Shown here piece by piece: positions 43,351 to 54,331 of a DNA stretch of 64,000 nucleotides (position 1 is its first letter; each line of letters begins with the position of its first letter). The translations under genes and the position numbers were made by a program. Source of the DNA: Actinophytocola algeriensis (GTDB taxonomy: Bacteria; Actinomycetota; Actinomycetes; Mycobacteriales; Pseudonocardiaceae). Below the pieces are notes generated by a model. It had not been told where the DNA came from. It saw only the letters and a program-made list of their open reading frames with translations, and searched no databases. Location of the stretch: NCBI RefSeq assembly GCF_014203735.1, contig NZ_JACHJQ010000003.1, positions 357,326-421,325 of the forward strand, written 5' to 3'.

Positions 43351-45792
43351 GTGGCTCTGACCGACGACCGGGCAGCCGCGCCAGGGGCGGAGGGCGGCAA
43401 CGGGTTCGACCGGCAGCCACCGCAGGACCTCACGGCCGAACAGAGCGTGCTCGGCGGCATGATGCTGTCCAAGGACGCGATCGCCGACGTCGTCGAGGTG
43501 CTCCGCCCGAACGACTTCTACCGGCCCGCACACCAGCTGGTCTACGACTGCATCCTCGACCTGTACAGCCGGGGTGAGCCGGCCGACGCCGTGACCGTCG
43601 CCGCCGAACTGGAACGCCGCGGCGAGATCCGGCGGGTCGGCGGCGCCCCGTACCTGCACACGCTGATCGCGACCGTGCCCACGGCCGCGAACGCCAGCTA
43701 CTACGCGGAGATCGTCGCCGAGAAGGCGACGCTGCGCAGGCTGGTCGAGGCAGGCACGAGGATCGTGCAGCTCGGCTACTCGGGCGCCGAGGGCGCGGAC
43801 ATCAACGAGGTCGTCGACCGCGCCCAGTCGTCGATCTACGACGTCACCGAACGCCGCACGACCGAGGACTACGTCGTGCTGGAGGAACTCCTCCAGCCCA
43901 CGATGGACGAGATCGACGCGATCGCGTCCCGCGGCGGCACCTCGCTCGGCGTCCCCACCGGCTTCGCCGACCTGGAAGCCGTCACCAACGGCCTGCACCC
44001 CGGCCAGATGATCATCGTCGCGGCCCGGCCCGGCATCGGCAAGGCGCTGGCCCTGGACACACCACTGGCGACGCCTGACGGCTGGGTGACCATGGGGACC
44101 GTCGAGGTCGGCGACCACCTCATCGGCGCGGACGGCCGCCCGACCCGGGTCGTCGCCGCCACCGAGGTGATGCGTGACCGCCCCTGCTACGAGGTCGAGT
44201 TCTCAGACGGCACCGTCATCGTCGCCGACGCCGAGCACCAGTGGCTGACCGAAACCCGGGCGTCACGCCGCTCCGCCCGGACAGCCGCTGCCGGACGCGA
44301 CCGACAGGAGAATCAGCGCACGTTCCCCGCCGTCCGGACCACCGCGCAGATCGCGGACACACTCCGCTGCGAGACCGCTGGTCGCGGGCTGAACCACTCG
44401 ATCAACAACGCCAAGCCACTCGACCTGCCCGAACGTGACCTACCGCTCCCGCCCTACACCTTCGGTGTCTGGCTTGGTGACGGCCATTCCGCGAGCGCTC
44501 GATTCACGTCGGCGGACCCCGAGATCGTCTGGTACGTGGAAGAGGAAGGCCTGACGGTCATTCCGCGAGGCGATCTGCGCTGCAGTCTCCGACTTCCGGC
44601 CAATCCCGCTGTCGGCCACAGGACGGTGGATGCGATCCTCCGCGCCCTCGGTGTGCTCGGGGACAAGCACATTCCCGTCGACTACCTCCGTGCGAGCGAG
44701 TCGCAGCGGCGTGCGCTACTTGCCGGGTTGCTCGACACCGGCGGCACGGTGTGCACGACGGGTGCTGTGCAGTTCTCGGTAACGAACCAGCGGCTCGCCA
44801 TGGACACCTACGAGCTGGTCGTGAGCCTCGGGTACCGCTGCTCCTTGACGACCAGGAAGGTCGAGGGTCGCGGCGAGCTGTCGTCGACGGCGTACACCCT
44901 CACCTTCAGCACCGAGGACGAGGTGTTCCGGCTCGAACGGAAGCGTCTGCTGCACAAGGAGCACAACCGGGCGAAGAACGCCGAACGGTTCGGCTCGCGG
45001 TACATCGTCGATGTGCGGCCGGTGCCGAGTGTTCCGGTGCGGTGTGTGGAGGTCGACAACGCCGATCACCTCTACCTCGCGGGCGCGGCCATGGTGCCGA
45101 CACACAACTCGACGCTGGGACTGGACTTCGCCAGGTCGTGCTCGGTGACCCACCGGATGACCAGCGTCATCTTCTCGCTGGAGATGAGCCGCACCGAGAT
45201 CGTCATGCGCATGCTCTCCGCCGAGGCGAAGATCCGGTTGCAGGACATGCGTGGTGGGCGCATGACCGACGACGACTGGACCCGGCTCGCGCGGCGGATG
45301 AGTGAGATCAGCGAGGCGCCGCTGTTCGTGGACGACTCGCCGAACATGACGATGATGGAGATCCGGGCGAAGGCCAGGCGGCTCAAGCAGCGGAACGACC
45401 TGAAGCTCGTGGTCGTGGACTACATGCAGCTGATGACGTCCGGCAAGCGGGTCGAGTCCCGGCAGCAGGAGGTCTCGGAGTTCTCGCGGCAGCTCAAGCT
45501 GCTCGCCAAGGAGCTCGAGGTGCCGGTGGTCGCGATCAGCCAGCTGAACCGTGGTCCGGAACAGCGCACCGACAAGCGGCCGATGCTGTCCGACCTGCGT
45601 GAGTCCGGCTCCCTGGAGCAGGACGCGGACATGGTCATCCTGATCAACCGCCCGGACGCCTTCGAACGCGACGACCCCCGCGCGGGCGAGGCGGACCTGA
45701 TCCTGGCGAAGCACCGTGCCGGCCCGACCGCCACGATCACCGTCGCCCACCAGCTGCACTACAGCCGCTTCACCGACCTGGCCCAGTCCTGA
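43351..45792 (+). CDS. dnaB: Replicative DNA helicase DnaB containing an intein
   Basis: 813 residues precursor, 458 after splicing. GTG start after AGGGGG. The N-terminal helical domain (LTAEQSVLGGMMLSKDAIADVVEVL) is followed by the RecA-like ATPase. The intein splits the Walker A motif between ARPGIGK (K231) and STLGLDFARS (S587). Exteins carry VVVDYMQLMTSG (Walker B) and RESGSLEQDADMVILINRPDAF. It unwinds DNA ahead of the fork as a hexamer; activity needs splicing since the P-loop is interrupted. The upstream LexA box suggests damage induction. Confidence 0.95.
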   Translation: MALTDDRAAAPGAEGGNGFDRQPPQDLTAEQSVLGGMMLSKDAIADVVEVLRPNDFYRPAHQLVYDCILDLYSRGEPADAVTVAAELERRGEIRRVGGAPYLHTLIATVPTAANASYYAEIVAEKATLRRLVEAGTRIVQLGYSGAEGADINEVVDRAQSSIYDVTERRTTEDYVVLEELLQPTMDEIDAIASRGGTSLGVPTGFADLEAVTNGLHPGQMIIVAARPGIGKALALDTPLATPDGWVTMGTVEVGDHLIGADGRPTRVVAATEVMRDRPCYEVEFSDGTVIVADAEHQWLTETRASRRSARTAAAGRDRQENQRTFPAVRTTAQIADTLRCETAGRGLNHSINNAKPLDLPERDLPLPPYTFGVWLGDGHSASARFTSADPEIVWYVEEEGLTVIPRGDLRCSLRLPANPAVGHRTVDAILRALGVLGDKHIPVDYLRASESQRRALLAGLLDTGGTVCTTGAVQFSVTNQRLAMDTYELVVSLGYRCSLTTRKVEGRGELSSTAYTLTFSTEDEVFRLERKRLLHKEHNRAKNAERFGSRYIVDVRPVPSVPVRCVEVDNADHLYLAGAAMVPTHNSTLGLDFARSCSVTHRMTSVIFSLEMSRTEIVMRMLSAEAKIRLQDMRGGRMTDDDWTRLARRMSEISEAPLFVDDSPNMTMMEIRAKARRLKQRNDLKLVVVDYMQLMTSGKRVESRQQEVSEFSRQLKLLAKELEVPVVAISQLNRGPEQRTDKRPMLSDLRESGSLEQDADMVILINRPDAFERDDPRAGEADLILAKHRAGPTATITVAHQLHYSRFTDLAQS
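44044..45108 (+). other. Class 3 intein with LAGLIDADG endonuclease domain
   Basis: 355 residues (232-586). It begins with Ala (ALALDTPLATPDGW), not Cys or Ser, and ends PTHN before Ser587. The W-C-T signature of class 3 inteins is present: W298 (block B, HQW), C565 (block F, RCVEVDN), T584 (block G, PTHN). The endonuclease motifs are FGVWLGDG (371-378) and LAGLLDTGG (457-465). In the second the catalytic Asp at position 8 is Gly, so cleavage is probably lost. The insertion point in the P-loop is a known intein site in bacterial DnaB. Confidence 0.9.
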
Positions 45793-45815: not shown

Positions 45816-46856
45816 ATGGCTGATCGGCGCGCCTCGCTCGGGCGGGTGCAGGCGTACCTCGGGCGTTGCAGTGCCGCCGAGGCGCTGGCCAACCGGGACG
45901 CGTTCGGCGGGGTCACCTTGCAGGGGGTGCACGGGCTCAAGATCGCGCGGGTGCTGGACCGGGCCGGGGAGCTGAAGGGCGTCGACCTCGATCCAGCCGC
46001 CTATCTGGCCAGGGGGAAGCCCACGGCTCCTGTCGTACGGGGACAGCTGGGGTTCGACCTCGACCTGCCCGTCTTCGACTGGGTCGAGGTGCAGGCCGAA
46101 CTCGGGTTGCCCGTCGTCCGGACGGCCGGGCCTCGGTTGCGGGTCGGGCAGTTGGACGAGCTCAAGGCCGAGTTGCACCGGGACTACCCGGTGCCGGTTT
46201 CCGTGACGCTGGTGCTCGACGGCGGATGGCTCGGGTCCAAGCACAGCGGGGTGCTCGCCGAGCAGTTGCGCGCTGCGGACCGGGACATCTCCCTGGTGTT
46301 CGGGGCGCCCTTCGACCCCGTGGACTCCTCGTACAAGGTCCTGGGACTTCGGCGCCTGCTGCGGTGGAGCAACCGGACCGGGCGCAAGCTGGAGTTGTTG
46401 CGCACCGGGCCGATCGGGATTCCCGCTGTCGCCGCCGGTGCGAAGGTCGCTGCCATCGGCGCCTCCTCGTCCACCCGGCATCTGGGTGGGCCGGTCGCGC
46501 GGCGGGCCGACGGGGTGCGGCCCAAGCGGAGTCCTCAGGTGTTCGTGCCTCGGCTGCTGCACTGGCAGCGCGGGGTGGACCTCAAGGGCACGGAGATCAC
46601 CCACTGTTCCTGCGCCGCCTGTGCTCGCGCGGGGACCGGGTTGCAGCGGTTCGATGTCGCCTTCGACAGTTCGGTGCCCGCGGGGGTGCGGAACGCCGCG
46701 CGGGAGCACGACCTGCACGCGCTCGCCGGGGTCGTCCGGGGGCTGGGGACCGCGGCCGACCCGCGGGAGGAGCTGGCCCGGTTGCGGCAGGACGCCCAGG
46801 AACTCGCCGAGGCGACCGGGGTGACCCTGCCCAAGTGGCTGGGCAACTGGGACTAG
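45816..46856 (+). CDS. Conserved hypothetical protein downstream of dnaB
   Basis: 346 residues from ATG 45816, 23 bp after dnaB. I do not recognise a family. It looks like an alpha/beta protein with barrel-like periodicity (VSVTLVLDGGWLGSKHSG, DISLVFGAPFDPVDSSYKVLGLRRL, IPAVAAGAKVAAIGASSSTRHLGG). It has a Cys cluster HCSCAACARAG (about 266-276) that could bind metal. No export signal or membrane segment. Could be co-transcribed with dnaB; function unknown. Confidence 0.65.
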   Translation: MADRRASLGRVQAYLGRCSAAEALANRDAFGGVTLQGVHGLKIARVLDRAGELKGVDLDPAAYLARGKPTAPVVRGQLGFDLDLPVFDWVEVQAELGLPVVRTAGPRLRVGQLDELKAELHRDYPVPVSVTLVLDGGWLGSKHSGVLAEQLRAADRDISLVFGAPFDPVDSSYKVLGLRRLLRWSNRTGRKLELLRTGPIGIPAVAAGAKVAAIGASSSTRHLGGPVARRADGVRPKRSPQVFVPRLLHWQRGVDLKGTEITHCSCAACARAGTGLQRFDVAFDSSVPAGVRNAAREHDLHALAGVVRGLGTAADPREELARLRQDAQELAEATGVTLPKWLGNWD

Positions 46857-46870
46857 CCATCCAGCATGGG

Positions 46871-46905
46871 AAAGGGCCCGGGAGCGTGGTGCTCCCGGGC
46901 CCTTT
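46871..46905. terminator. Bidirectional terminator
   Basis: Perfect 15-bp stem: AAAGGGCCCGGGAGC (46871-46885), loop GTGGT, complement (46891-46905). It separates the plus-strand dnaB-linked gene from the minus-strand repeat protein. Confidence 0.9.
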
Positions 46906-46916
46906 CGGTTACCCGG

Positions 46917-49900
46917 TCAGGCGATCGGGTGGGTGGTGAAGAGGTTCGCCAGCGCGGCGCGGGTCGAGTCGAGCGACGACCCGCCCAGCTCCGGAGCCGC
47001 GACCTCGGACCCCGCCGGGACCAGGGTGCCGACGCTCGGCGCCTGCGCGATCGGGGCGGCGGTGATGTCGCCGACGCCCGGGGCGGCCGGAATGACCGGC
47101 AGGACCGTGGTGATGTCGGTCAGGTCACCCGTCGCGGGGATCACGGGGATGAGGGTCGTGACCTCGGTCAGGTCCACCGGGACGTTCGAGCGGCTGCCGA
47201 AGCCACCGAAGCGGTCCAGCGAGACCGGCGACAGCGGCGCGAACACGTCACCGACCATCGGCATCGCCGGGACGTGCGGCAGGTCACGCTGCACCGGCAG
47301 GTCACCCGTTGGCAGCCCACCGACGATGGTGTCCGTCGGCAGGTCCGCACGCTGCACCGGCAGCGCCACCGGCAGACCACCCGAGGGCAGGCCACCGACG
47401 ATGGTGTCCGTCGGCAGATCGCGCTGCCGACCGGGCAGGCCGATCGGCAGGCCACTCGTCGGCAGGTCACCGGTGATGCCGTCCGTCGGCAGGTCCGTGG
47501 TCAGCCGGTAGGACGGCAGGTCCTGGTTCACCAGGCCGCCCGGCACGCCACCGGCGGGCAGACCGGGCACGTCGGACGGCAGACCGCCCTTGATCGCGTC
47601 GATCGGCAGCGCCGGGGCCTCGGTGGGGAGGCCACCGGTCACCTCGGTGCCGCTCAGCGAGCTGGACGGCACACCGGGCACGGAGGTCGGGAGACCAGCG
47701 TTCAGCGAGTCGATCGGCAGGCCGGGCGCCTCGGTGGGCAGACCGGGCAGGGCGACCGGGAGACCGCCGGGCAGGCCCGGGACCGGCGTCGCGTCGGCAC
47801 GGGCCGGCGCGGGCAGGATCTGCGGCACCTCCGGCAGACCGTCCGCCGACAGGTCGGTGACCGGAACCTGGACGGGCAGGCGGGCCGGGAAGCCCGACAG
47901 CACGCCGGTGAACGCGCCGCGGAGGTCCTGGGCGGGCATGGAGCGCGGCGACGAGAAGCTCGGGAGCTCCGTCGCGCTCATGACACCCTCGGCGGGCAGG
48001 CGCAGCATCTGCACCTCACCCTCGCCGGCCCGCAGGTCGCTGGTGTTCGCGGATTCCGTCATCGCCTTGGCAAGCACCTCGACCGGGATGTCGTAGTACG
48101 GGCCGTTGGCACCGGCCGGCAGCGTGGCGTCGAGACCGGACAGCGAGCCCATCGCACCGCTGGTCGTGGACGTGCCGCCGACCTCACCATCCGTGCTGGA
48201 GATGCCCTGGGCGTGGGAGCGGCCCGCCCACGCCGACACCGCGTCGCCGAACGGCTGCACGACCGCGGCCGCCGGCACGTCGACCAGGTTGCCGGACAGG
48301 TAGCCGTCGTCACCGGTGGTGTCGATGTCGCCGCCGGACCCGGCCTCGGTCTTGTTCATCGCCGACGAGGAGCTGCCCCCGCCGACCCCCGACGCCGCGG
48401 TGGCGAAGCTCTGCGCGAGCGGCAGAGCCTGCGGCGAAGCCACGTTGCCCGACATCAGGCCATCCCGACCGCTGGTCTCGGTGTCGCCACCGGCCTCGGT
48501 CTCCGTCTGCGACCCGGCGAGCGAGTGGTTGGAGCCAAGTGCGGTGGCGGACTCGCCGTACACCTGGCCTGCCCCCGCGACCGGAGCGTTCATCACGTTG
48601 CCCGTTCCCGCGCCGTGCGTGCCGTCGCTCATCGAATCACCGCCAGCCTGCATCTCGGTTTGGTTGACCGCGGCCTGCGTGCCCTTGGCGAGACCGCTGG
48701 CCCCGGTCCCGAAGACCTGGGCCGGGACGGACACCGGGACCTGCCCGATGTTGCCGGAACCCAGACCCGCGGTACCGGTCGCCTTGTTGTCGCCACCGGA
48801 GGTGACGTGGTTGTCGGCGGACGCCGCGGCGTTGGTGGAGCCCACCGCACCGGCGCTGTTGCCGAACGCCTGCGCCGCCGTCGCGACCGGGGTGGTCACG
48901 AGGTTGGACGCGGCCAGACCGTAGTCGTCGTCGGTGTTGTTGCCGCCACCGGAACTGGTCTTCTTGCTCTCCGACGCCGCCGTGCCCGCGCCACCCGCGC
49001 CTGCCGCGCCGTTGCCGTACACCTCGCCCGGCGTGTTCACCGGCGCGGTGGCCATGTTGCCGCCGGCCACCGAGTTGTCGCCGGTGGTGCCGGTGTTGCC
49101 GCCCGAGCTGGTGTCGACGTAGTTCTGCGCGGTCGTCCCGGCATCGCCAGCACCCGCCGCGGCGTTCGCGAACACGTCGGCCGTGCCGGTCATCGGCGCG
49201 TTCGCCGTGGTGCCGGACACGATGCTGTCGTGGCCGCGGGTGTAGGAGTCGCCGCCCGCCGTCGAGTCGACGCGGTTGGTGGCGTCCGCCGTCGCCTCAC
49301 CGACCGCGGCGGCCCCGTTGCCGAAGCCCTCGACGGGCAGCGTGACCGGAGCGGCCGCGATGGCGCCGGAGGCGACCGAGCCCTCACCGGTGGAGCGGCT
49401 GGTGCCGCCCGCGTCGGTGGTGGTGGCGGTGTCGCAGGTCGCGTCGGCCGAGCCGATCGCACCACCCGCGTTGCCGCACAGCATGGCCGGGCCGGACAGC
49501 GCGGGCTGTGCGACGTTGCCCGCCGCGTAGGCCGGGTCGCCGTTCGTCTCGACGTAGGTCGGGACGCGGTACTTGCCGGTGCGGGTCGTACCCGCGGCGG
49601 CGTCGGCGGCCGAGTCGGCGGAGGCGTCGGACTTGCCGAGGCCCATGATCGCGTTGCCGTTGACCCGCGCCGGCACGGCAACCGGCACCGGAACGGCGTT
49701 GCCGCCGCCGACGCTGTCCGCACCGGCGGTGAGGACCGAACCGCCGGCCTCCGCGGAGGTCGAGGCCTCCGAGGTGGCTTCGGCCGAGCCGCCGCCCGCG
49801 ACCGCGTTGCCGTCGGCCTGGACCGGCGTCGCGAACTGCGGCGCGACCACGTTGCCACCGAGGAAGCTGTGCGACCCGTTGGTGTCGATGTCGCCGGTGG

Positions 49901-50678
49901 TCCAGGCTTCCTGGTGGGTGGTGCCCTCGGCGGACGCCGTGCCTGCGCCCGCGACCGCGTTGTTGGTGACCTGCACCGGGAGCGCCCAGTCCAGGTCGAC
50001 CACGTTGCCACTGACGAAGCTGCCGGACCCGTCGGTCTCGGTGTCGTGCTTCCAGCCGTAGCTGTGGTCCGACTCGTTCGTCGTCTCGGCGCGCCCGATC
50101 GCCGCGACCGCGTTGCCGGAGATGTCGACCGGGACCACCATGTCCGCGTCGATCTGGTTGCCCTGCGCCGGGGTCCCGGCCATCTTGTCGACGGCGGGGA
50201 CGCGCACCTTGTCCGTCGACGGGAGGTTGGTGACCTTGTCGCCCACCACGGGCAGCGACGTCACCTTGCCGGTGACCGGCGCGGCCTTGTCCGCGAGCGG
50301 TGCCGCGAAGTCACGGCCTTCCCGCGGCAGCGGCGCGATGGCGTTCTGGACCTTGCTGACAACGGGTGCGGCGGGCCCGGTCGCCTTGCCGGCGATCGGG
50401 CCCGTGACAGCCGTGACCTTCGCGAGCGGCAGAGCGCCGGTGATCCGCGAACTGTCGACCGCGATGTCCCGGTGGATCGCCGGAAGGGCCTTCTGGCCGA
50501 GCGGCGTGCCGAACACGTTGTTGTCGATGTGCACAGGGACGGCGACCGAACCGTCAAGCGGCGATGCCGGCTTGTCGGGGTTGACGTCCTCGTCGGCGGA
50601 AGCGATGCCGGTACCCAGCATCAGCAAACCACCGGTGACCAGCGCTGTCTGAAGACCGCGCTTCGCCCACGTTTGCAT
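46917..50678 (-). CDS. Giant secreted chaplin-like repeat protein
   Basis: 1253 residues, ATG 50678 after AAAGGAGC. Signal peptide (KRGLQTALVTGGLLMLGTGIASA, cleavage near residue 28). A Pro/Val-rich linker reaches residue 176. Residues 177-850 hold thirteen tandem repeats, nine or more exactly 51 long. Each opens with a PV-x-V-x-GNA-x-G core and ends in an AGGD...SGNV segment, resembling chaplin beta-strand units (GN..PV..PV..GN). One unit carries a Cys pair (CGNAGGAIGSADATC, about 401-415). The C-terminal 400 residues have short repeats such as LPTDTIVGGLP. No membrane anchor or LPXTG. Probably a surface amyloid-like or adhesive protein; inference. Confidence 0.75.
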   Translation of the reverse strand: MQTWAKRGLQTALVTGGLLMLGTGIASADEDVNPDKPASPLDGSVAVPVHIDNNVFGTPLGQKALPAIHRDIAVDSSRITGALPLAKVTAVTGPIAGKATGPAAPVVSKVQNAIAPLPREGRDFAAPLADKAAPVTGKVTSLPVVGDKVTNLPSTDKVRVPAVDKMAGTPAQGNQIDADMVVPVDISGNAVAAIGRAETTNESDHSYGWKHDTETDGSGSFVSGNVVDLDWALPVQVTNNAVAGAGTASAEGTTHQEAWTTGDIDTNGSHSFLGGNVVAPQFATPVQADGNAVAGGGSAEATSEASTSAEAGGSVLTAGADSVGGGNAVPVPVAVPARVNGNAIMGLGKSDASADSAADAAAGTTRTGKYRVPTYVETNGDPAYAAGNVAQPALSGPAMLCGNAGGAIGSADATCDTATTTDAGGTSRSTGEGSVASGAIAAAPVTLPVEGFGNGAAAVGEATADATNRVDSTAGGDSYTRGHDSIVSGTTANAPMTGTADVFANAAAGAGDAGTTAQNYVDTSSGGNTGTTGDNSVAGGNMATAPVNTPGEVYGNGAAGAGGAGTAASESKKTSSGGGNNTDDDYGLAASNLVTTPVATAAQAFGNSAGAVGSTNAAASADNHVTSGGDNKATGTAGLGSGNIGQVPVSVPAQVFGTGASGLAKGTQAAVNQTEMQAGGDSMSDGTHGAGTGNVMNAPVAGAGQVYGESATALGSNHSLAGSQTETEAGGDTETSGRDGLMSGNVASPQALPLAQSFATAASGVGGGSSSSAMNKTEAGSGGDIDTTGDDGYLSGNLVDVPAAAVVQPFGDAVSAWAGRSHAQGISSTDGEVGGTSTTSGAMGSLSGLDATLPAGANGPYYDIPVEVLAKAMTESANTSDLRAGEGEVQMLRLPAEGVMSATELPSFSSPRSMPAQDLRGAFTGVLSGFPARLPVQVPVTDLSADGLPEVPQILPAPARADATPVPGLPGGLPVALPGLPTEAPGLPIDSLNAGLPTSVPGVPSSSLSGTEVTGGLPTEAPALPIDAIKGGLPSDVPGLPAGGVPGGLVNQDLPSYRLTTDLPTDGITGDLPTSGLPIGLPGRQRDLPTDTIVGGLPSGGLPVALPVQRADLPTDTIVGGLPTGDLPVQRDLPHVPAMPMVGDVFAPLSPVSLDRFGGFGSRSNVPVDLTEVTTLIPVIPATGDLTDITTVLPVIPAAPGVGDITAAPIAQAPSVGTLVPAGSEVAAPELGGSSLDSTRAALANLFTTHPIA
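48129..50150 (-). repeat. Thirteen tandem about 51-codon repeats
   Basis: The coding repeats of the secreted protein (residues 177-850). Unit length is 51 codons except one of 61 (residues 330-390, a 10-codon insert) and one of 52. Sequence similarity between units is in pattern rather than bases, so they are old duplications. Confidence 0.8.
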
Positions 50679-50919
50679 CGTCGGATGCTCCTTTCGTAGT
50701 CCCTTGGGGAGGGGGTTTGGCGGGTGGCCGGACGCGGAGGGGCACACGCGTCGGGGCAGTCGGCCACCCGTGTCTGTGGGTGGTCGCGGGGATGTCCGCG
50801 GGGGGTGAAAGGCGCGTGGCAACACGACCGTGTCGGTGGTTCGCTCCGCACGCTCCGCGAGCGCGGTGCGTCGGATCCGCTCAGCGCTCAGGGCTGATGG
50901 CGGACGCGCCAGTCAGTGT

Positions 50920-51735
50920 TCAGTCAGGTGCGACACCGGGCTGTGTGCCCGGACGCCCGAAGGTGGCCGCGTCGGAAACCGCGGCGACACCGCCGCGCGT
51001 GAGGCCGAAAACGCTGTCCTGCCACGGAAGCGCGGCGAACAGGTGCGAGTCGAACGAGTTGCCCGCGGAGCCGTGGCCGACCGTCGTCGGCACGCCGGCC
51101 GGCGGGGTGAACGGGAGCGGGTTGGGGACACCCGGGAGGTCCGGGAGCGTGGGCAGGACCGGCTCGGGGGAGCCGCGCCTGCTCATGCCGTCGGCGAAGG
51201 CCCGGTCCGTGGCGGACCGGTGGACGACGGACTGGAGGTCGACACCGGGCACGGTGACGTCCTCGGCAGTCGCGCTGGGCAGGGGCACCGGGAAGGCGGG
51301 CATGTCCGAGCGGCCGTAGCCGGCGGAGGAGTACTCGCCGGCCTCGTCGGCGCCGGGCAGCTGCTCGAAGCCGCGTCCCGCGTCGGAGCGGAACTTCTGC
51401 GCGGCGTCCTTCACCCTGTCGCCGAGGTCCTTCAGCGGCTGCTTCGGCGGGGGCGGCGGATCCTGCAGGTACCGCGTGACGGTGTGGACCGCGGTCTCGA
51501 CCGGCCCGGTGACGGGCGCGGCGAAGTCCTGGACCTCGGTGGTCACGTGCTGCACGGTCCGCACGTGCTGTTCGGCCGACCGCGGCGGTTGCACGTCGGC
51601 CGACGCGGAGGCGGTGGAGAGCCACCAGGCGAGGGCGGTCCCGGCGGCAACGCCACCGATGACCGTCAACGTCCGGCGGACGACACGCCGCGCGAACGCG
51701 GGCGTCTGCCGGACGTCGTTCTTCGCCTGAGCCAC
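50920..51735 (-). CDS. Secreted hypothetical protein next to the repeat protein
   Basis: 271 residues from GTG 51735 after GCGAGGTT. Twin basic N-region (FARRVVRRTL), hydrophobic segment (VIGGVAAGTALAWWL) and ASA cleavage near residue 42, so it is exported. The mature part is Pro-rich with a helical region (KQPLKDLGDRVKDAAQKFRSDAGRGFEQLPG) and ends in a Gly/Asp/Pro-rich tail. No Cys. Not recognised. Same strand as the repeat protein, 241 bp upstream of it, and probably involved in the same surface structure. Confidence 0.6.
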   Translation of the reverse strand: MAQAKNDVRQTPAFARRVVRRTLTVIGGVAAGTALAWWLSTASASADVQPPRSAEQHVRTVQHVTTEVQDFAAPVTGPVETAVHTVTRYLQDPPPPPKQPLKDLGDRVKDAAQKFRSDAGRGFEQLPGADEAGEYSSAGYGRSDMPAFPVPLPSATAEDVTVPGVDLQSVVHRSATDRAFADGMSRRGSPEPVLPTLPDLPGVPNPLPFTPPAGVPTTVGHGSAGNSFDSHLFAALPWQDSVFGLTRGGVAAVSDAATFGRPGTQPGVAPD

Positions 51736-51989: not shown

Positions 51990-53195
51990 GTGACCTCGCC
52001 CCCCGAAGAGAAGTCCCCTCCACCGACCAGAAGACGACGCAGGACACCACCGCAGGACGTGACCGGGCTGGTGCCGACCGGTCTGCGTGTGAGCGCCGCC
52101 CTCGCGTGGCGCTTCCTCATGGTCATCGCCGCGCTGTACGTGATCATCTGGCTCGCCGGCTACTTCTCGCACCTCGTGGTGCCCGCGGCGATCGCGTTGC
52201 TGCTGGCGGCTTTGATGGCGCCGGGGGTGGAACGGCTCGTGCGGTGGAGCGTGCCCCGCGGCCTGGCGGCGGCGATCGTGATGATCGCCGGGATCGGCGT
52301 GCTCGGCGGCCTGCTGACGTTCGTGATCATCCAGTTCACGCAGGGCCTGCCGGAGTTGCAGTCCCAGGTCTCGGACAGCCTCGACCAGATCAGGACCTGG
52401 CTGACCGAGGGGCCGCTGCACCTGCGGGACGAGCAGATCACGTCGTTCATCGACAACACGATCGACACGATCCAGGAGAACCAGGCGGCGATCACCGAGG
52501 GCGCGCTCACCACGGCGACGACCATCGGCGAGATCCTGACCGGCTTCCTGCTGACCGTGTTCGTGCTGATCTTCTTCCTGTACGACGGCCCTGGCATCTG
52601 GAAGTTCGTGACCCGCGGCGTGCCGTCGCGGGTGCGGGACCGGGTGGACGTGGCCGGGCGGCGCGGGTTCGGCGCGCTCGTCAGCTATGTGCGCGCGACC
52701 GCCGCGGTGGCGCTCGTCGACGCCGTCGGCATCGGCATCGGGCTCGCGATCATGCAGGTGCCACTGGTGATCCCGCTGTCCGCGCTGGTGTTCCTCTCGG
52801 CGTTCGTGCCGATCATCGGTGCGGTCCTGGCAGGCACGGTCGCGGTGCTGATCGCGTTGGTGGCCAACGGGTTCATCGCCGCGGTGGTCGTGCTGGCGAT
52901 CGTGGTCCTCGTGATGCAGCTGGAGAGCCACGTGCTGCAACCGTGGCTGCTCGGCCGCGCGGTGCGGCTGCACCCGCTCGCGGTGGTGCTGGCGATCACC
53001 GCGGGCCTGCTCGCGGCCGGGATCGCGGGCGCGCTGCTGTCGGTGCCGCTGCTGGCGGTGCTGAACGCGGGCGTCAAGTCGCTGGTGAACGACACCGACA
53101 CGGAGCCGGAGGACATCGACGTCCTGAACCAGGACGACCAGGCCCCGCCCGGCGGCGATGCGGAAGAGGACACGAAGGCGACCTGGAAGCCGTGA
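51990..53195 (+). CDS. AI-2E/PerM-family permease
   Basis: 401 residues from GTG 51990, which has a leaderless promoter (TACCTT 7 bp upstream). Eight membrane segments, split by the large loop after the third (QGLPELQSQVSDSLDQIRTWL), is the UPF0118/PerM pattern. Family members export or import small molecules (AI-2, Na+, others). The cytoplasmic C-terminal tail is acidic (DTEPEDIDVLNQDD). Its stop overlaps the sensor-kinase start (GTGA), so the three genes form one operon. Confidence 0.85.
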   Translation: MTSPPEEKSPPPTRRRRRTPPQDVTGLVPTGLRVSAALAWRFLMVIAALYVIIWLAGYFSHLVVPAAIALLLAALMAPGVERLVRWSVPRGLAAAIVMIAGIGVLGGLLTFVIIQFTQGLPELQSQVSDSLDQIRTWLTEGPLHLRDEQITSFIDNTIDTIQENQAAITEGALTTATTIGEILTGFLLTVFVLIFFLYDGPGIWKFVTRGVPSRVRDRVDVAGRRGFGALVSYVRATAAVALVDAVGIGIGLAIMQVPLVIPLSALVFLSAFVPIIGAVLAGTVAVLIALVANGFIAAVVVLAIVVLVMQLESHVLQPWLLGRAVRLHPLAVVLAITAGLLAAGIAGALLSVPLLAVLNAGVKSLVNDTDTEPEDIDVLNQDDQAPPGGDAEEDTKATWKP

Positions 53196-54331
53196 ACAAC
53201 CAGCAGGGTCGGGATCCGACGCTTCCCTTGTGGCGCGCGGCGGTTCTGCTGCGGGTCCTGACCCTGCTGTTCGCGCTGGGCGTGATCATCTACCACCTGG
53301 ACGAATACCGGCGGCCATGGCTGGCGCTGGTCATGGGTGGCGTGATGACCGTGTGGACGGTCGTCGTCGCGGTGCGGTACCTCAAGCCCACCGAGAAGCT
53401 GCTCGCGTTCACGGTGTTCGACCTCGCCGTGTGCTGTGCGGTGATGACCAGTTCCCTGCTCGTGCTCACACCGCTGCAGCTGGAAGGCGAACCGGTGCCG
53501 CTGGTCCCGACGGTGTGGGTCACCGGTGTGGTCGCCGCCGGTGCGGTGGCGGCCGGGCCGGTCGCGGGCGGGGTGTTCGGCGGTGTGGTGGCCGCGTTCA
53601 ACTACGGCGTGCGCGGCTACGTCGACACCGACCTGACCCGCGACCTGATGCTGCTCGTCGGGGTGGGTTTCGTGCTGGGGCTGGCGGCCGCGTCGTCGCG
53701 GCGGTCGGCGGCACGGCTCGAGACCGCGTTGCGCACGGAGGCGGCGACGGCCGAGCGGGAGCGGCTCGCGCGGTCGATCCACGACAGCGTGCTGCAGGTC
53801 CTCGCACACGTGCGCAGGCGCGGCGGCGAGCTGGGCGGGGACGCGGCGGAGCTGGCGAAGCTCGCCGGTGAGCAGGAGGTCGCGTTGCGGGCGCTGGTGT
53901 CGAGCGCGCCGGCGTCGACCGAGGACGGCGCCGCGGACCTCGGTGCGCGGCTGAAGATCCTGGAGACCGAACGGGTCTCGGTGTCGGTCCCCGCGACGCC
54001 GGTGCCACTGCCGGCCGCGGCGGCGAACGAGCTGGCCTCGGCCGTGCGGGAGGCGCTCGCGAACGTCGGGAAGCACGCCGGTGTGACAGCCAAGGCGTGG
54101 GTGTTGCTCGAAGACCTCGGGTCGGACATCGTGGTCAGCGTCCGGGACGACGGGGTCGGCATCGCGCCCGGCCGGGTGGCCGCGGCGGAACGGGAGGGTC
54201 GCATGGGCATCGCGCGGTCCCTCCGCGGCCGGGTCGCGGAACTGGGTGGCAGTGTGACGCTCGAGACCGCGCCAGGGGAGGGGGTCGAGTGGGAACTCCG
54301 GGTGCCGCGGGAACGGAGCGGAGCGAAGTGA
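53192..54331 (+). CDS. MacS-like sensor histidine kinase
   Basis: 379 residues. N-terminal membrane region (six segments, 12-165; DUF5931-like), then a dimerisation helix with IHDSVLQVLAHVRRR (H197), and a HATPase with ALANVGKHAGVTAKAWV, RDDGVGI and EGRMGIARSLRGR. No extracellular domain, so the signal is probably membrane-borne. It overlaps both the permease and the response regulator genes, indicating tight coupling with the permease. Confidence 0.88.
   Translation: MNNQQGRDPTLPLWRAAVLLRVLTLLFALGVIIYHLDEYRRPWLALVMGGVMTVWTVVVAVRYLKPTEKLLAFTVFDLAVCCAVMTSSLLVLTPLQLEGEPVPLVPTVWVTGVVAAGAVAAGPVAGGVFGGVVAAFNYGVRGYVDTDLTRDLMLLVGVGFVLGLAAASSRRSAARLETALRTEAATAERERLARSIHDSVLQVLAHVRRRGGELGGDAAELAKLAGEQEVALRALVSSAPASTEDGAADLGARLKILETERVSVSVPATPVPLPAAAANELASAVREALANVGKHAGVTAKAWVLLEDLGSDIVVSVRDDGVGIAPGRVAAAEREGRMGIARSLRGRVAELGGSVTLETAPGEGVEWELRVPRERSGAK

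Follow-up and report, generated by a model that had tools for sequence, protein, structure and literature searches.

Fourteen-unit chaplin-related arrays in Pseudonocardiaceae and their predicted beta-solenoid fold

Chaplins are model functional amyloids. The long chaplins ChpA-C of Streptomyces (family PF03777) carry two chaplin domains and a sortase signal, according to the accessible part of PMC7766987. Chaplin-like proteins have been named outside Streptomyces, none of them from Pseudonocardiaceae in the accessible part of PMC4255298. Here we analyse a 64,000-nucleotide stretch of Actinophytocola algeriensis (Pseudonocardiaceae; assembly GCF_014203735.1, contig NZ_JACHJQ010000003.1, forward-strand positions 357,326 to 421,325), hereafter the window, which encodes a protein with an array of 14 chaplin-type units, next to a companion gene whose product ends in the motif PGx[TNSA]PD. 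Like ChpA-C, the array protein appears to be secreted, has a profile-related domain and shares the first cysteine column where cysteines are present; unlike them, it fuses 14 units in one chain, and no anchor was found in it. We judge it moderately probable that it is secreted as a beta-solenoid rod of chaplin-type units, that its tail is disordered and that it has a structural role at the surface.

A chaplin-related array and its family

The first-pass annotation, made from the letters of the window, had described thirteen chaplin-like repeats. The repeat array is real and beyond chance: the window protein (P0001) scores 42.8 bits with a canonical chaplin profile and 97.7 bits with a multi-unit profile, against 11.4 and 8.6 bits for the best of 1000 shuffled sequences. 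The canonical profile holds 33 domains from L031-L046, nearly all of one genus, and the multi-unit profile 48 domains of multi-unit proteins from L047-L059; both sets were picked by a chaplin-like pattern with two cysteines. The source genus of the canonical set is presumably Streptomyces. A profile of the unit itself, with units under 5 bits ignored, counts 14 units rather than thirteen. The proposed spacing of 51 residues is kept in ten of the 13 intervals, projected to the unit-profile start; two measure 52 and one, between units 4 and 5, measures 61. The units have diverged, with pairwise identities that average 0.30 and reach 0.50 at most, and the array was not reported by a DNA tandem-repeat scan.

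The suggested relation to chaplins is borne out by Pfam, by the two purpose-built profiles and by profile-profile comparison. The protein has a single Pfam hit, to ChpA-C, which scores 47.8 bits for a curated cut-off of 21. This score adds up many weak units; no single stretch of the protein reaches an expectation value (E) of 0.001 by Pfam ChpA-C alone; the best single unit scores 15.3 bits with the canonical profile. ChpA-C is matched at E 0.001 by 27 of the 34 family members scanned, and the medians over 93 family proteins are 17.3 bits (canonical) and 46.1 bits (multi-unit), with reversed sequences at -9.4 and -11.0. Profile-profile comparison, with 400 of the family's 1331 units, gives 96.5% against the canonical set over 38 columns and 97.6% against the multi-unit set over 44; reversed controls give 6.4% and 0.5%, column-shuffled ones less than 0.2%, and cysteine-free units still 95.3% and 96.7%. 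Of the three Gly-Asn motifs expected of a chaplin domain, G16N17 occurs in 985 of the 1331 units, G31N32 in 466 and G38N39 in 370; Asn17 is present in 84% of units.

The array protein is nevertheless no chaplin in the strict sense. It has, as the first-pass annotation noted, a secretion signal, judged by eye. Chaplins other than ChpE have two cysteines per domain, but here two occur in one of the 14 units and in 108 of the 1331 family units; the array is acidic and not hydrophobic (grand average of hydropathy, GRAVY, -0.16; charge -49), its units lying at about 0 against a median of 0.52 for the 33 canonical domains; and where a chaplin has a single domain, or a pair of them together with a sortase signal, there are 14 units and no sortase-like tail. 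The absence of an anchor noted at first reading extends to the family, with no sortase-like tail in a pattern search over 93 members.

A contig scan returned 184 relatives, and 78 loci were kept, mainly from Amycolatopsis, Lentzea, Saccharothrix, Actinokineospora and Prauserella; the first three are genera of antibiotic producers. Within Pseudonocardiaceae, 85 of 150 genomes and 29 of 46 genera match the array profile at E 1e-10, a few of the matches being short or weak; in a wider sample of the class, 26 of 194 genomes, the window's own counted, match at E 1e-6, along only part of the profile. The set of 93 comprises P0001, 80 proteins from named loci and 12 further proteins, of which two (L017, L019) are cut by the locus end; L001, which is the window, was left out, as were L021, a fragment, L023-L030, where the array is missing or distant, and duplicates of named sequences. 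Fourteen units are found in 78 of these proteins, 15 in nine, 16 in two and 18 in four, and the array with short flanks spans 714-757 residues in the 72 named 14-unit homologues. Between orthologues, units are 47% identical at the same position and 30% at different positions, so the 14-unit array is probably older than these genera; on the same ground, a recent tandem expansion was dismissed. At L139-L143, L145 and L146, signal peptide and tail are kept and the array is lost or eroded.

The cysteine pair that the first-pass annotation saw in a single unit consists of C401 and C415, the protein's only cysteines, at chaplin positions of unit 5. Across the 1331 units, 108 carry two cysteines, 13 carry one and 1210 none, counts inflated by kinship among the proteins; random placement within proteins would give 16.9 two-cysteine units, with a maximum of 27 in 2000 draws. 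In 105 of the 108, the pair joins column 30 or 31 to one of columns 42-48, on the chaplin columns or adjacent to them. Such pairs are spread over 72 of the 93 proteins and occur, in 14-unit proteins, in units 1, 4, 5, 6 and 7. In the profile-profile alignments column 30 falls on the first chaplin cysteine of both domain sets and column 44 on the second cysteine of the multi-unit set; the second cysteine of the canonical domains lies outside the aligned columns. Cysteines that move among units yet stay paired are what two facing columns would give. Several multi-unit proteins from outside the family have, unlike it, a cysteine pair in nearly every unit, which suggests a cysteine-rich ancestor; some other arrays outside Pseudonocardiaceae, unlike these, carry no cysteine. 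Among proteins outside the family, L158, L160, L161 and L163 have 6 to 10 units, no cysteine pairs and a hydrophobic C-terminus.

Predicted fold and the reading it supports

With 14 diverged units per chain, within-chain variation is enough to infer a unit fold. Set A2 holds the window protein and 53 of the 72 eligible homologues, and set A3 33 of 80. AlphaFold2, run on a 54-row alignment and read as strand strings and confidences, gives the array a predicted local distance difference test (pLDDT) of 93.7 and a predicted template modelling score of 0.89, with one strand pattern recurring. Disorder, which would speak against the fibre first suggested, is predicted for the linker and for the part of the tail that was modelled (residues 897-1200); it does not hold for the array, because confident, regular beta-strands are predicted there. 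N-terminal to the linker, residues 41-82 ('unit 0') resemble an array unit in their predicted strand pattern, followed by a short helix, and are a possible N-terminal cap. P48 and N54 of this segment are invariant (20 of 20 in the alignment); the unit profile does not report it, and with the canonical chaplin profile it scores 1.0 bit, over residues 44-57.

Co-variation between adjacent units concentrates at zero offset: that diagonal has a mean z of 3.10 and holds 16 of the 25 top couplings, compared with a mean z of 0.51, a maximum of 0.76 and at most 6 of 25 in 20 permutations. The signal decays to z 1.63 two units apart and 0.62 four apart; in 21 representatives below 60% identity it is z 1.88, with 10 of 25. 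Within cysteine-free units (n=1220), antiparallel coupling is best along two diagonals, i+j=25 and i+j=74, and the column pair 30-44 is among the top couplings; by our own mapping, these diagonals link strands of the AlphaFold2 model. In-register co-variation and regular, confident strands agree with stacked coils, and gene conversion may add to the signal. The solenoid is a predicted fold, and its support from co-variation is partly independent.

In the reading that we favour, the signal peptide would be removed and the protein secreted; the N-terminal unit-like segment and the 14 units of about 51 residues would stack in register into a beta-solenoid in which each unit forms one rung, and the C-terminal 350 or so residues would remain disordered. 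Such a rod would correspond to stacked chaplin domains linked by covalent bonds, its length fixed by the gene and not by polymerisation. The disordered tail or the co-inherited companion might keep it at the surface of hyphae or spores, or within the extracellular matrix; these are proposed as holders because there is no sortase signal, and the conserved C-terminal tail of the companion is a candidate docking peptide. Surface location and attachment, a structural task in the coats of hyphae or spores, the role of the companion and any contribution to aerial growth, to spores or to adhesion are inferred by analogy with chaplin biology, as presented in the accessible parts of PMC7766987, PMC5618249 and PMC4255298. 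An acidic, non-hydrophobic array speaks against a plain chaplin function.

Several points weigh against this reading. The term solenoid is deduced from the predicted strands, from co-variation and from a second comparison with PDB chains, not from coordinates, and the co-variation draws on the same protein family that the model was built from. Foldseek returned no PDB match at E 0.001. Insertions are not kept out of the predicted strands (104, against a shifted-control mean of 86), although deletions between homologues do avoid them, and gene conversion among neighbouring units could account for part of the zero-offset coupling. A 19-residue stretch of GRAVY >1.6 occurs after residue 60 in 44 of the 93 proteins, in no case within the last 60 residues. 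With the canonical profile, at a family median of 17.3 bits, some members score below zero, and seven of the 34 members scanned do not reach E 0.001 with Pfam ChpA-C. Array-less orthologues occur, two of them in the window's own genus (L139, L140); the companion tail was not found beside array-less L139, L142 and L143, nor in the 1155 bases upstream at L019. For near-perfect repeats, AlphaFold2 returns beta-solenoids that are unrealistic yet predicted with confidence, according to the accessible part of PMC11795689.

That known bias, together with the insertions, the want of a clear structural match in the PDB and the chaplin ancestry, would suit another account, in which the model is an artefact and the protein is secreted largely unfolded, forming intermolecular amyloid like chaplins. 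We hold it to be unlikely. The bias concerns near-perfect repeats, and the units here are diverged and were modelled from a 54-row alignment; the in-register and antiparallel co-variation, present in cysteine-free units as well, the conserved number of units and the low hydrophobicity of the array also argue against it.

A bolder version of the rod is conceivable, although we lean against it: the array as a genetically concatenated chaplin protofilament, amyloid rungs fused into a soluble solenoid of fixed length. If so, the rung fold derived from co-variation would be the fold of the chaplin amyloid itself: each rung would have one beta-arc at columns 5-20 and another at columns 28-46, the latter closed by the chaplin disulphide, and the Asn17 residues would form a ladder. 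The companion's QPGVTPD-type tail would be a dedicated docking or capping peptide. A PDB sequence search with one chaplin domain returned nothing at E 1.

Companion gene and locus

The companion gene lies upstream of the array gene on the same strand. Its product has a conserved hydrophobic N-terminal segment (signal or membrane), a variable middle and a conserved end, and belongs to no Pfam family. The array family points to this partner: a product ending in PGx[TNSA]PD is encoded upstream in all 80 homologues of named loci, an ending carried by 81 of the 12,323 frames of at least 60 residues in these loci. In the companion alignment the P, G, P and D of the tail are present in 81 of 81 rows, which were selected by the tail itself, none of the 80 being dropped. 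Among the further array loci L002-L022 the tail occurs in 19 of 21; L020 offers only about 225 bases upstream. It also adjoins array-less L024 and L027-L030; it was not found beside L140, which sits at a contig end, nor in the short loci of L026 and L031-L060. In L065 and L066 the array gene is present twice in one locus, with a companion beside each copy.

The array gene (Table 1) has GAAAGGAG at 50695-50688, upstream of its ATG, and the signal peptide, MQTWAKRGLQTALVTGGLLMLGTGIASA as judged by eye, is kept across homologues. Coding on the opposite strand, where 46866-50699 (+) is a long shadow frame of high GC, was dismissed by judgement.

Table 1 Features of the array protein and its surroundings, in window coordinates.
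Feature	Coordinates	Strand	Basis or remark
Array protein coding sequence, 1253 residues	46917..50678, stop included	-	open frame, ATG at 50678
Signal peptide, residues 1-28	50595..50678	-	judged by eye; strong conservation in family alignments
Unit-like N-terminal segment ('unit 0'), residues 41-82	50433..50558	-	AlphaFold2
Linker, residues 86-167	50178..50423	-	predicted disordered, pLDDT <50; length varies among homologues
Array, 14 chaplin-type units, residues 172-879	48042..50165	-	unit profile; AlphaFold2
Unit 5 (C401, C415), sole cysteine-bearing unit	49422..49556	-	unit profile
C-terminal Pro/Leu-rich tail, residues 897-1253	46920..47990	-	composition; AlphaFold2 for 897-1200
Companion gene	50920..51735	-	C-terminus QPGVAPD; probable GTG start at 51735, by eye
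AI-2E family transporter	51990..53195	+	Pfam PF01594
Replicative helicase DnaB with apparent intein	43351..45792	+	recognised from sequence

Relatives of the AI-2E transporter occur in 77 of 78 named loci and relatives of DnaB in 63 of 78, some loci ending early; both neighbours serve as markers of the conserved locus. By sequence reading, the apparent intein lies inside the Walker A motif of DnaB. Between DnaB and the array gene, the neighbouring gene at 45816-46856 (+) has no Pfam family, and no relative of it was found in the 78 loci; downstream of the transporter, 53195-54328 (+) encodes a histidine-kinase-like protein with DUF5931.

Comparison with known systems

Among described chaplins, ChpE is also without cysteines; it differs in being a single small surface-active peptide (PMC5618249, accessible part). 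CwpA and CwpB of Actinoplanes missouriensis are hyphal surface proteins likened to long chaplins and encoded as a pair; they differ in being sortase-anchored, and their authors conclude that they have no chaplin domains, in the accessible part of PMC13251363.

The structural second look gave six rows, which we take to be SufB/SufD, a phage depolymerase, a PL6 lyase, antigen 43 and EtpA, parallel beta-helix proteins. Their identity in the structural alignment is 5-10%, and Foldseek is not significant. That antigen 43 and EtpA, both surface proteins of bacteria, are in this list would, like the acidic array, suit a rod that acts as an adhesin or as a receptor for the matrix, with a polysaccharide or another cell bound by its disordered tail or by the companion; its chaplin ancestry would then be mere history. 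We regard this as rather improbable, if somewhat less so than an AlphaFold2 artefact.

Multi-unit proteins of other Actinomycetia (among L026, L047-L060 and L158-L176, several of these loci repeating one gene) are alike in their 3 to 10 units and matching second cysteine column, and some have, as the array family does, a signal of the MxTWAK type and a tail rich in Pro and Leu. They differ in having fewer units, linkers and, mostly, a C-terminal membrane or sortase-like anchor. Those linkers and anchors would fit beads on a string, in which each unit is a chaplin-like module of its own and serves to seed or tether other amyloid proteins; the same has been proposed for long Streptomyces chaplins, whose role as a scaffold is a published model (PMC7766987, accessible part). 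For the present array we find this hard to credit, and about as unlikely as the artefact: most of it lacks linkers, ten of the 13 spacings being exactly 51, neighbouring units are coupled in register and no anchor was found. Also against it, a search of the 150 family genomes, an insensitive one that missed the window's own array, gave one strong short-frame ChpA-C match, the rest being weak or in frames of array size. The strong match is in G272, at locus L147 (76 bits, 87 residues).

The first-pass annotation had thought this kind of chain undescribed. Several fused chaplin-type units are known elsewhere in actinomycetes, as above, and its interpretation as a whole is partly supported; the self-assembling fibre for aerial hyphae or adhesion that it proposed stays hypothetical. 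Among the open-licence papers listed by the searches, none was found to describe such a protein from Pseudonocardiaceae, and the array is an undescribed candidate surface-layer protein in that family, one in which the unit fold could be tested on a possibly soluble monomer. New here, compared with these known systems, are at least 14 units in one chain, mostly without linkers and cysteines, with no anchor found and with a fixed partner gene.

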